Origin: Clostridia bacterium
GTDB taxonomy: Bacteria; Bacillota; Clostridia; Christensenellales; Borkfalkiaceae
Direction: 5' to 3'
DNA: 64,000 nucleotides
NCBI GenBank assembly: GCA_017463325.1
Contig: JAFTPK010000002.1
Span: forward strand, 124,001-188,000
Under the pieces are notes generated by a model that was given only the letters and a program-made list of their open reading frames with translations, was not told the origin of the DNA and searched no databases. A program made the translations under genes and the position numbers. This document shows positions 31,784 through 48,605 of the stretch, piece after piece (within the stretch, counting starts at the first letter, position 1; the number at the start of each line of letters is the position of its first letter).

Positions 31784-31866
31784 GCGGATGTGGCGAAACT
31801 GGCAGACGCGCAGGTTTCAGGTTCCTGTGGGAGACCATATGGGTTCGAGTCCCTTCGTCCGCACCA
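31784..31866 (+). tRNA. tRNA-Leu(CAG), probable phage attachment site
   Basis: Acceptor GCGGATG / CGTCCGC, D-arm TGGCGAAACTGGCAGACGC, anticodon loop TTCAGGT (anticodon CAG at 31818-31820), T-arm GGGTTCGAGTCCC and encoded CCA. The last anticodon-stem pair is a T-T mismatch. The tRNA is complete, as expected when integration at the 3' end restores it. The integrase gene begins its 3' end 100 nt away. Confidence 0.93.
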
Positions 31867-31965: not shown

Positions 31966-33102
31966 TTAGACGATTTTTGCGAGGATGTTATCCATATCTT
32001 CTTGGTATAAATGTCCGTAGGTTTTTATTACTTGCTCTACGGTATCGCTTATTAAATCTGCCACCACGATAAAGTTCGCGCCAAGGTGTATAAGCATTGA
32101 AACGAAAGAGTGGCGCAAATCGTGAATGCGGATGCGTTTCACGCCTGCTCGCTCTATATATTTATCAAAGACACGCGCGACGGTAGTTGCCGCGAGCGGT
32201 TGGTCGCCCCCAAAATAAAATTTTCCGTCTTTCGGCGCATAGTTCTTTATTTCGTCTTGTACAACCTTGCAAATGGGGATAATGCATTCCTTATCTTCTT
32301 TTGTTGTTGTGATTTCCCAAGTTCCTTTACCGAAAGTGCGCCGATTTACGGATTTTGAGAAAGAAATAGTTTTCTCGCGTACATCTTCGGGGAATAGAGC
32401 AAACAGTTCCCCTTTTCTCCTCCCGGTGAAAAACATAAAAGTAAAAAGGGCGTGCCAAGTGGGGTCATCAACGACGGCTATAAACTGCTCAAACTCTTCT
32501 CTCGTCCAAAACAGCATTTCTTTTTTTGGAGAACGGCGTTTTGGTTTGTCCATAATAAGAAAGTAGTTTTTATAGCCGTACCTTTTTTCCACCCAAGTCA
32601 AAAACGTGCTGAACAGACCGCGAATTTTCGTCAAATATTTGTGCGAAAAATACTTCCCGTTCTTCTCGTTTTTCATCGCCCACATTCTATCTTGCCAATT
32701 ATACAGACTTTCTTCCGTGATATTTTTTGCTTTTATATTTTCGTAATCAGGCAGGATGTAGTTCCGAAAAATATTATGCTTATCGTAGATTACGCTTTCC
32801 TTGTTTACGTTCCCAAGTGTAGCCAAATAAGCTCGCACCAATTCGCCCACAGTAGGTTCTTCCTTCTGTGGGTTTTTCTTTTTCAACGGATTGCGCTTTA
32901 CAAGCTCGCATTTTTCGGTTACGAACTCCATATAGCCCTGCTTTGCCAAACCTTTCGTTGCAAAGCCGCGAATTTGCATCTGCTTTTCTTCGCCGTCCAT
33001 TGTAATTACGCGGAATAGCAGGTCATATACCTTTCCGCGTTTTTTTGTATTTCTCTCACGAAGAGAATATTTATTTGAAGAAATATAATAATGCTCACTC
33101 AT
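31966..33102 (-). CDS. int: Phage tyrosine integrase
   Basis: A 378-residue tyrosine recombinase. The N-terminal ~70 residues resemble an arm-binding domain (KRGKVYDLLFRVI); a SAM-like core-binding domain spans about 80-180. The catalytic domain has the first Arg in FTGRRKGEL, HDLRHSFVSML (His-x-x-Arg) and TYGHLY with the nucleophile Tyr. It is transcribed toward the tRNA. Its ATG overlaps the stop of the lipoprotein gene, so it is expressed with the repressor. Confidence 0.95.
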   Translation of the reverse strand: MSEHYYISSNKYSLRERNTKKRGKVYDLLFRVITMDGEEKQMQIRGFATKGLAKQGYMEFVTEKCELVKRNPLKKKNPQKEEPTVGELVRAYLATLGNVNKESVIYDKHNIFRNYILPDYENIKAKNITEESLYNWQDRMWAMKNEKNGKYFSHKYLTKIRGLFSTFLTWVEKRYGYKNYFLIMDKPKRRSPKKEMLFWTREEFEQFIAVVDDPTWHALFTFMFFTGRRKGELFALFPEDVREKTISFSKSVNRRTFGKGTWEITTTKEDKECIIPICKVVQDEIKNYAPKDGKFYFGGDQPLAATTVARVFDKYIERAGVKRIRIHDLRHSFVSMLIHLGANFIVVADLISDTVEQVIKTYGHLYQEDMDNILAKIV

Positions 33103-47187: not shown

Positions 47188-47468
47188 AACCTTCGTTAAA
47201 CAGAACGGTTTATTGCATATACGAAGATTGCATACTCACGGAAGAAGTTTACGCGCTCGGTGCGGACAGCTTTATTGTTGCGAGCTTCGGGAGTATGACA
47301 AATTCCGATAGTTGGGAATATTTCTTTGAAGAGTACAATGAAACTTGGTTCACAAGCCTTGCAAGAGCAAAGAAAAAATTGAAGGCGAAATACCATAGAG
47401 AACACGAAAAATCTTGTACTTTTGTTGAGATTGAGAGTGGATATTACGAGGCTATACCTGAAAAATGA
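47184..47468 (+). CDS. Small phage protein, unknown function
   Basis: A 94-residue protein, beta-rich at first (NRTVYCIYEDCILTEEVYAL) then basic (ARAKKKLKAKYHREHEK). Start at ATG 47184 with GGGAG 8 nt ahead; a GTG at 47175 in frame is rejected. It overlaps the PAPS-reductase-family gene by ATGA. Confidence 0.65.
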   Translation: MKPSLNRTVYCIYEDCILTEEVYALGADSFIVASFGSMTNSDSWEYFFEEYNETWFTSLARAKKKLKAKYHREHEKSCTFVEIESGYYEAIPEK

Positions 47469-47803
47469 CAAATTATCGCCTTCTTAACAAATACATAACC
47501 GAAGAAATAGACCCAAACGCGGTTTACGTTCTCTCGCTTTCATACGGAAAAGATAGTCTTGCTTGCCTTGGGGCGATTGAAAAACTTGGACTTCCGCTCC
47601 ACAGAATCGTACACGCAGAGGTGTGGGCTACGGACACAATCCCCGCCGACTTGCCGCCTATGGTGGATTTTAAGGCAAAGGCAGATGAAATTATAGAACG
47701 GCGTTGGGGAATAAAAGTCGAGCATATTTGCGCAACGAAGAAGATTTGCGGGGGGGGGTCAACAAAAACTCTCTTACGAACAGATGTTCTACAATGTGCT
47801 TGA
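47465..47803 (+). CDS. PAPS-reductase/ATP-PPase-family protein, N-terminal part cut off by a G9 tract
   Basis: YVLSLSYGKDSLACLGAIE contains the SxGKDS PP-loop of the adenine-nucleotide alpha-hydrolase superfamily, and HAEVWATDTIPADLPPMV is typical of phage PAPS-reductase-like proteins. At 47750-47758 a tract of nine G follows the TGC codon. With nine G the frame runs into TGA at 47801. With eight G it would read CGGGQQKLSYEQMFYNV and continue to 48605 (379 residues). So the gene is out of frame in this copy. The native reaction is unknown. Confidence 0.85.
   Translation: MTNYRLLNKYITEEIDPNAVYVLSLSYGKDSLACLGAIEKLGLPLHRIVHAEVWATDTIPADLPPMVDFKAKADEIIERRWGIKVEHICATKKICGGGSTKTLLRTDVLQCA
47750..47758 (+). 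repeat. G9 tract that interrupts the PAPS-reductase-family gene
   Basis: Nine G after TGC. Eight would keep the long frame; nine leads to a stop at 47801-47803. Confidence 0.95.
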
Positions 47804-48605
47804 AAGTGGACAGTTTGCAGGAACAATCAAAGGATTCCCACTTACAATCGGAAGTTGGTGCAAAAAGCTCAAATACGAAAACGGAGCGGTTGACATACGA
47901 AGATATATTCTATCGAGTTGTGCAATCGCGGGGGGGGGCAAGGATTTACGGCTTCCCGATGCTCGGCGGGCAATGGTGCAACTCGGCTCTCAAAATGCAA
48001 GCCTTCCGACAGACTCAATCACGGGCTTTGCGACGAAATGGAGTCAATACTGCACGGGGGAACTCAAACGAACCGTATTACGGGCTTTCCCATTTCAGTC
48101 AACCGGGGGAATTGGTGTACCCAACTCAAACAAAGGGTTTTCCAAAAGCCCGAACACGACGGGCGGTATAAATGTCGTGCAGTATCTTGGGATTGCGGCA
48201 GACGAGCCTTTAAGAATAGAAAGACACTCCAAACGAAAGGATATTATACTTCCGCTTGCGGAAATCGGGTGGGATGAAGATTACTGTGGACTGTGGGCAA
48301 AATACAATGATTTGCTGTCGCCGACATATACGACAGCAACAAGGGGCGGCTGTTGGTTCTGCCACAACCAAGGGGTTGAGCAATTAAGGTTATTGCGAAA
48401 GAATTACCCTGACCTTTGGGAACTCTTGTTAAAGTGGGACAAGGACAGTCCGACAACGTTTAAGCCCGACGGTCATACGGTGCGGGATTTCGACAAGAGA
48501 TTCGAGATGGAAGATAAAGGAATTATCAGCCCAAAAGACACGTTTCGGTGGAAATACCTTACAGAACCACCGCAAATGCGGCAAATGTCCATTTTCGACA
48601 TTTAG
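47784..48605 (+). CDS. PAPS-reductase-family protein, C-terminal part with tandem modules in shifted frames
   Basis: The C-terminal ~150 residues (VVQYLGIAADEPLRIERH, TTATRGGCWFCHNQGVEQLR, LLLKWDKDSPTTFKPDGH, ending QMSIFDI) are the normal end of the protein begun at 47465. Between about 47770 and 48130 the DNA encodes four variants of a module GFP...WC...LK: in this frame (GFPLTIGSWCKKLK; GFATKWSQYCTGELK), in frame +1 (47704-48171, YGFPMLGGQWCNSALK) and in frame +2 (47918-48277, GFPISVNRGNWCTQLK). A second G9 tract (47930-47938) lies in the module region. The ATG at 47784 is only the first in this frame, not a convincing start. Confidence 0.75.
   Translation: MFYNVLESGQFAGTIKGFPLTIGSWCKKLKYENGAVDIRRYILSSCAIAGGGKDLRLPDARRAMVQLGSQNASLPTDSITGFATKWSQYCTGELKRTVLRAFPFQSTGGIGVPNSNKGFSKSPNTTGGINVVQYLGIAADEPLRIERHSKRKDIILPLAEIGWDEDYCGLWAKYNDLLSPTYTTATRGGCWFCHNQGVEQLRLLRKNYPDLWELLLKWDKDSPTTFKPDGHTVRDFDKRFEMEDKGIISPKDTFRWKYLTEPPQMRQMSIFDI
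47930..47938 (+). repeat. G9 tract in the module region of the PAPS-reductase-family gene
   Basis: Nine G. In frame for the second module (QSRGGARIYGFP) if read in the 47704 frame; in the 47784 frame it codes AGGGKD. Confidence 0.95.

Follow-up and report, generated by a model that had tools for sequence, protein, structure and literature searches.

A prophage gene of Clostridia that probably switches between alternative segments held in different reading frames

A Clostridia prophage carries a PAPS-reductase-like gene (47465–48605) that is likely to be phase variable and frame multiplexed: a slip-prone repeat would choose which version of an internal segment is read, and frameshifting would afterwards restore the frame of a shared C-terminus. 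Translation of the alternative segments and the frameshifting itself are inferred. The case for this reading rests on related loci in which the same architecture recurs, on the constraint acting on each segment in its own frame, on natural alleles that differ in repeat length and on a conserved slip site and RNA pseudoknot ahead of the C-terminal domain.

Prophage setting

The window, that is the whole 64 kb stretch of DNA analysed, comes from a draft assembly (25 contigs, 84% complete) and includes the prophage, which also harbours SSB, RecT and portal genes. The integrase gene (31966–33102) adjoins a tRNA-Leu gene (31784–31866) that is the probable attachment site. Runs of eight or more G occur seven times in the 64 kb, every one of them between 45.7 and 50.0 kb, where they occupy two DNA methyltransferase genes, the PAPS-reductase-like gene and a C5-methyltransferase gene. 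A related locus is found on a viral contig, L002, with 95.6% identity; the two sequences show four length differences in this island, all at G tracts (46365, 47750/47759, 47930 and 49538). Five other G8–G10 tracts (45701, 46365, 49006, 49538 and 49953) lie in the Dam-like, N-methyltransferase and C5-methyltransferase genes, and two of these differ in length from L002. Judged from sequence alone, the interval may represent a phase-variable DNA-modification island on the prophage.

The C5-methyltransferase neighbour was considered as a second multi-frame gene and rejected, its alternative frames being full of stops; ordinary ON/OFF variation is the likely, though inferred, interpretation. A scan for homologues of this neighbour returned only the contig of L002 and one weak match. 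The C-terminal domain of the PAPS-reductase-like protein is present in 3 of the 201 genomes of the searched family, and the gene is therefore a rare phage cargo gene.

Organization of the gene

Frame f0 is that of the C-terminal domain, with codons starting at window positions divisible by 3; the codons of f1 and f2 start one and two bases after those of f0. The features, all on the plus strand, are as follows.

47465–47749, plus strand: N-terminal PP-loop domain (SLSYGKDS) with ATG at 47465; open reading frame, PHROG 424 PAPS reductase match (1.1e-4) and homology to single-module proteins
47750–47759, plus strand: phase-variable tract 1, G9 (47750–47758) then T
47772–47873, plus strand: module 1 (SYEQMFY...GFPLTIGSWCKKLK), f0; profile 6.8e-14
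47893–47994, plus strand: module 2 (TYEDIFY...GFPMLGGQWCNSALK), f1, spanning tract 2; profile 2.4e-13, f1 third-position share 0.54–0.55
47930–47938, plus strand: phase-variable tract 2, G9 (G8 in L002), predicted to select f0, f1 or f2 downstream
48012–48068, plus strand: module 3 (...ITGFATKWSQYCTGELK), f0; conserved in L018, L024, L028 and L032, f0 third-position share 0.57, profile match weak
48056–48130, plus strand: module 4 (...ITGFPISVNRGNWCTQLK), f2; profile 2.8e-5, f2 third-position share 0.69
48138–48142, plus strand: putative slip site TTTTC (context AGGGTTTTC), read as TTT in f0, TTT in f1 and TTC in f2
48148–48179, plus strand: H-type RNA pseudoknot, 6 nt after the f1 TTT codon, supported by covariation
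48148–48152/48160–48164, plus strand: pseudoknot stem S1, GCCCG/CGGGC
48155–48159/48175–48179, plus strand: pseudoknot stem S2, CACGA/TCGTG
48165–48605, plus strand: common C-terminal domain, f0 (VVQYLGIAADEP...GCWFCHNQ...); PHROG 424 1.7e-21, f0 third-position share up to 0.78–0.90

The first-pass annotation of the window, made without database searches, had described nine G at 47750 with a stop at 47803, a second G9 at 47930 and long open stretches in three frames (47704–48171, 47784–48605 and 47918–48277); all of these are present. Its claim that eight G at the first tract would give a 379-residue protein also held: by arithmetic, removal of one base from tract 1 joins the ATG at 47465 to the frame ending at 48605. 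In its present state, with the stop at 47803, the tract is OFF, and the one-base-off allele is likely, as inferred from sequence alone, to be one OFF state of a switch. The corresponding tract in L002 is G9 without the following T.

The modules are versions of a GFP..WC..LK segment in which one Cys is invariant and a Lys is present. A profile was derived from 31 single-module homologues; searched against the six frames of the 64 kb window, it recovered modules in three different frames and no other match above threshold. The earlier claim of four such modules in three frames thus held with a qualification: the profile finds modules 1, 2 and 4, and module 3 (GFATKWSQYCTGELK) scores a weak 3.9 bits, while recurring in L018, L024, L028 and L032 with its stretch constrained in its own frame. 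Modules 2 and 4 share the DNA of their upstream parts with neighbouring modules, and this shared DNA thus encodes module sequence in more than a single frame. The annotation had called such overlap very unusual. A 248-nt stretch open in all three plus-strand frames, the sole such place on either strand of the window, was reached in only 2 of 3000 dinucleotide shuffles. No direct or inverted repeats longer than 23 nt were detected at 46.5–49.5 kb. A tandem duplication still visible as DNA repeats was rejected, as the modules are related as protein and not as DNA; segment switching by inversion was likewise rejected in the absence of suitable repeats in this interval, and the long repeats expected for hsdS-type recombination are missing from it as well. 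What the annotation had missed is that the C-terminal domain is read in one frame only and is preceded by a conserved slip site and pseudoknot.

Recurrence of the architecture

A scan of viral and genome contigs for related loci yielded 40 distinct loci with two to four modules in different frames (including L009 and L041, where only one module matched the pattern) and 62 with a single in-frame module. A polyG or (GA)n tract lies ahead of the modules in nearly all multi-frame genes and is rare in single-module genes. The use of frames is orderly: two-module genes employ f0 and f1, and f2 is added in three- and four-module genes. Between the tract and the slip site, 82 of 83 module-carrying frames are open, where shuffling predicts 11.6, and the third, unused frame (f2) of two-module genes holds 3–7 stops. 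The loci are spread over dozens of contigs, which come from many samples, and represent a family of phages of gut bacteria. None of the multi-frame loci found derives from an isolate; the isolate loci inspected, Gemmiger L115 and L155 and Pseudoflavonifractor L139, have one module in one frame.

Other arrangements exist. L054 and L073 pair a single-module gene with a tract (ON/OFF type), and L033, L132 and phage nd4 contain two modules in a single frame. In the last of these (L169, OR777945.1, 4001–4678) the two modules stand in tandem and the conserved GCWFC reads GC*FC, an in-frame stop owing to which the gene is annotated as two hypothetical proteins.

Constraint on each module in its own frame

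In five groups the frame in which third codon positions take the largest share of substitutions is that of the local module, and in all five it reverts to f0 just upstream of the C-terminal domain, at the slip site. Along the window group the shares are 0.55 for f1, 0.57 for f0, 0.69 for f2 and 0.78 for f0; in the L007 group they are 0.61 for f1, 0.61 for f2 and 0.90 for f0. Pairwise substitution counts are not independent, and a conservative test was based on variable columns pooled over groups. It supports constraint in f1 (p=4e-4), in f2 (p=0.007) and in f1 and f2 modules together (p=1.3e-5), the f2 signal at column level being weak in one group alone (p=0.12). Each module is constrained in its own frame.

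Natural variation of the tracts

Variation of tract length between natural alleles is directly visible. L018, L024 and L028, from three metagenomes, show no mismatch over 1118 nt except that their tracts are (AG)9, (AG)10 and (AG)8, which set entry into f2, f0 and f1, respectively. Sequences within L007/L008/L010/L011, within L014/L016 and within L129/L130 differ only or nearly only at tracts. The 34 distinct alleles with a readable N-terminus comprise, at present, 13 OFF, 12 f1, 5 f0 and 4 f2 states; f1 is thus not rare. These alleles come from metagenome assemblies, in which repeat lengths can be miscalled. The suggestion in the first-pass annotation that slips of one base pick different modules rather than merely stop translation is supported by these comparative data, as about 40 loci share the architecture, otherwise identical alleles enter different modules through tract length alone, and every module is conserved in the frame that encodes it.

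L129 and L130 sit on two contigs of one metagenome-assembled genome (JAFTXW010000058 and 055) and differ in this region by one AG unit only; they may represent two switch states in one sample. C8 or C9 tracts occur well upstream of the modules in L041 (-725), L045 (-724) and L050 (-467) and are possibly further phase-variable tracts.

A putative slip site and a pseudoknot

Just before the C-terminal domain lies TTTTY, followed, after a 6-nt spacer counted from the f1 TTT codon, by an H-type pseudoknot. The run of four T is found in 36 of 40 multi-frame loci, 35 of these 36 in the same register, and in 1 of 62 single-module loci. Four multi-frame loci are without it: L070, L071 and L145 have other re-pairing options, and none is apparent in L049. 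In L070 and L145 the run is replaced by CCCCCTCTCC, which offers CCC for -1 and CTC (on CTC) for -2 re-pairing.

The pseudoknot has the consensus GCNCC/GGNGC for S1, and in S2 the loop of S1 pairs with an arm further downstream. Across 39 sequences 89% of cells pair, compared with 73% after shuffling and at most 52% when slid. Covariation amounts to 57 double-change cells versus 14.3±3.0 shuffled (0/500), and one S1 pair exhibits all four Watson–Crick types (CG 15, GC 8, UA 8, AU 4). A pseudoknot scanner detects the element in 37 of 40 multi-frame loci, L111 being scored in another register, and in 0 of 62 single-module loci; L114, L129 and L149 form this fold too, but with one mismatched position. 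The element is missing from L033, L132 and nd4, whose two modules share one frame, and therefore tracks multiple frames, not multiple modules. L107 and L108 are exceptions, with modules in two frames and no pseudoknot. A (GA)n or (AG)n tract directly before the C-terminal domain replaces the pseudoknot in L033 (-36) and L108 (-38), conceivably as an alternative way to restore or break the frame. Among known Rfam elements only a sub-threshold chance match was obtained.

The signal elements and their covariation are established; the frameshifting is inferred. TTTTY comprises three overlapping Phe codons, one per frame, and the register would allow tRNA-Phe to re-pair by -1 from f1 and by -2 from f2, in either case onto the f0 codon. 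A ribosome in f0 cannot slip left, because the base before the T run is not T. The f1 entry site has the pattern NNT_TTT (GGGTTTT in the window). In Escherichia coli U_UU.C and U_UU.U are among the best -1 tetramers when a pseudoknot follows, and frameshift structures normally begin 5–8 nt downstream (PMC4066793). The loci meet what is expected of a -1 signal: a slip sequence in the entry frame, a structure 5–8 nt downstream (here the 6-nt spacer), and coding constraint in f1 or f2 before the signal and in f0 after it, in five groups. For -2 shifting, the required re-pairing of the f2 TTY codon on TTT is available in the T4 loci; arteriviruses perform -2/-1 shifting on G_GUU_UUU, and XXXUCUCU variants -2 only (PMC6675879).

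The layout is likely to constitute a programmed ribosomal frameshift signal, although no expression, ribosome-profiling or peptide data exist. By analogy with known rules, the inferred -1 route from f1 is well supported and likely. The f2 route is plausible and less certain, because -1 slippage into f1 would compete with it and +1 is not excluded for CTT T sites: the f2 tetramer U_UUC would also permit -1 into f1, a dead end.

The enzyme

Single-module homologues retain the G, P, C and K of the module together with a CxxC in the C-terminal domain. The structural model of one of them, L057, has a pLDDT of 90.5; its best PAPS/APS reductase match is 7rge (Z 12.1, rmsd 3.4, 156 aligned), and the top Foldseek matches are the [4Fe-4S] tRNA thiolases NcsA and TtuA. 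The sole sequence relative in the PDB is PptA (PDB 21fy, E=0.0014), and Pfam PAPS-reductase families give no match at E<=0.1. In the predicted fold of the L044 f0 isoform the out-of-frame stretch appears as a low-confidence linker. The exchangeable segment contributes one Cys and the C-terminal domain two, which suggests a cluster needing both parts; by inference, truncated forms should be inactive.

One single-module homologue (L080, 5629–7500) is fused in frame to a SAM synthetase (MetK, TIGR01034 1.3e-144), and L047, L048, L059, L066, L077, L079, L131 and L133, at ∼625 aa, are judged by length to carry the same fusion. The methyltransferase neighbourhood and the MetK fusion of L080 are the grounds for inferring a part in phage nucleic-acid modification. 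The PAPS-reductase/thiolase-like enzyme probably acts on DNA or RNA as a modifier, with the module tuning its target or activity; this is the weakest inference made here.

Proposed mechanism

In the favoured model, slipped-strand mispairing at the polyG or (GA)n tract would shift the frame once the constant PP-loop domain at the N-terminus has been read; of this step, tract variation is demonstrated and the replication mechanism is an inference. Two or all three frames hold their own version of the ∼35-aa segment, and slippage would choose the version. Module conservation and constraint are likewise demonstrated, module translation inferred. In four-module genes tract 1 would decide between a stop, module 1 and its bypass, and tract 2 would choose among three overlapping modules. 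At the junction, U UUU Y and the pseudoknot 6 nt downstream would shift ribosomes to f0, by -1 from f1 and by -2 (possibly +1) from f2, and entry in f0 would read straight through, with no leftward re-pairing. The predicted outcome is a set of subpopulations making an OFF form or several isoforms, with constant N- and C-terminal domains and different central segments.

A bolder reading treats the gene as a three-position switch in which all three frames code versions, -1 and -2 slips of tRNA-Phe converge on f0, each version is joined to one and the same C-terminal domain, and slips of a single repeat unit let the phage change the specificity of a nucleic-acid-modifying enzyme without losing the enzyme. 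The evidence tips in favour of this reading, by a modest margin.

Alternative explanations

The nearest rival holds that only f0 and f1 states give full-length enzyme, by -1 shifting, and that f2 modules end in truncated products or serve another role. In its favour, -1 from f1 fits known bacterial rules (PMC4066793), two-module genes are restricted to f0 and f1 with stops closing f2, and f2 entry is seen in just 4 of 34 alleles. It is nevertheless unlikely: f2 modules are conserved in their own frame and retain the invariant Cys and Lys, the f2 frame is open right up to the slip site, and L070 and L145, which have lost the T4 run, carry CTCTC permitting -2 re-pairing. An f2 protein truncated before the C-terminal domain, where the second Cys pair resides, should moreover be without the cluster. 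Much less credible is ordinary ON/OFF variation, with only f0 functional, the other modules relics of tandem duplication or recombination and the pseudoknot serving some other purpose. Single-module genes with a tract (L054, L073) and tandem in-frame modules (L033, nd4) do exist, and the L044 f0 isoform folds with its out-of-frame stretch as a low-confidence linker; yet relics would be neither open in 82 of 83 cases nor constrained in their own frame, pseudoknot and slip site go with multi-frame modules (37/40 versus 0/62 and 36/40 versus 1/62), and f1 entry is commoner than f0 (12 versus 5).

A return to the common frame through slippage of RNA polymerase, or through a second repeat in the DNA, instead of by the ribosome is also very unlikely. 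In L108 and L033 a repeat does immediately precede the C-terminal domain, and transcriptional slippage on long G runs is conceivable, but most loci offer merely 4–6 T at the rejoining point, and the pseudoknot shows compensatory changes at a spacing typical of ribosomal frameshifting. An assembly chimera, sequencing error or pseudogene is all but excluded. The draft state of the assembly and the frameshifted current allele speak for it; against it, the independent viral contig L002, at 95.6% identity, keeps all modules intact and the pseudoknot, and dozens of contigs obtained from many samples share the architecture. The first-pass annotation had stated that homologues with one clean frame and no modules would show this copy to be a decayed gene or an assembly chimera: the 62 one-frame homologues exist alongside the multi-frame ones, and decay or chimerism is contradicted by L002.

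Significance and comparison with known systems

Taken singly, repeat phase variation, frameshift pseudoknots and overlapping genes are known. The open-access full text searched, which did not cover preprints and subscription journals, yielded no case in which they combine to switch between homologous segments in all frames, nor was a precedent for the TTTTY-plus-pseudoknot element of the multi-frame genes found in the open-access literature searched. Repeat-driven phase variation is usually a lottery of frames, with OFF as the commonest draw; here the other frames are filled with alternative versions, and a translational device for returning from every frame has most likely evolved in addition. 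If the proposal is correct, homologous segments are naturally encoded in three frames, a recoding signal makes these frames converge, possibly with -2 shifting in bacteria, and an enzyme is diversified within little space. Multi-frame reading also explains annotations otherwise dismissed as pseudogenes.

One close parallel is simple-sequence-repeat phase variation, as in contingency loci and type III mod phasevarions, which shares a slip-prone tract within the reading frame, varying between otherwise identical alleles, and a DNA-modification neighbourhood. Those systems turn a gene ON or OFF or change its start or level, whereas here two or three frames encode an alternative internal segment ahead of a common C-terminus. 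In the fucosyltransferase gene of Helicobacter pylori a poly-C tract occurs together with -1 frameshifting. Type I hsdS specificity genes (PMC7394358) also switch alternative specificity segments at one locus, but by recombination between repeated gene copies instead of repeat slippage between overlapping frames of one gene. With PAPS/APS reductases, the [4Fe-4S] thiolases NcsA and TtuA, and PptA (PDB 21fy) the phage proteins share the PP-loop fold; they differ in having one Cys in the exchangeable segment and the CxxC in the C-terminal domain.

As regards the recoding signal, bacterial IS -1 signals (IS3 pseudoknot; PMC4066793) have the same components, namely a tetramer or heptamer slip site, a 5–8 nt spacer and a pseudoknot. 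They fuse two ORFs at a set ratio, whereas the phage signal would rescue frames chosen by a variable DNA repeat. The arterivirus G_GUU_UUU site (PMC6675879) resembles it in being a single U-rich site at which A-site tRNA-Phe re-pairs by -1 and -2. There the stimulators are a protein (nsp1beta) and a C-rich motif, in place of the pseudoknot found here, and one entry frame leads to several products; in the phage genes several entry frames would converge on one product frame.
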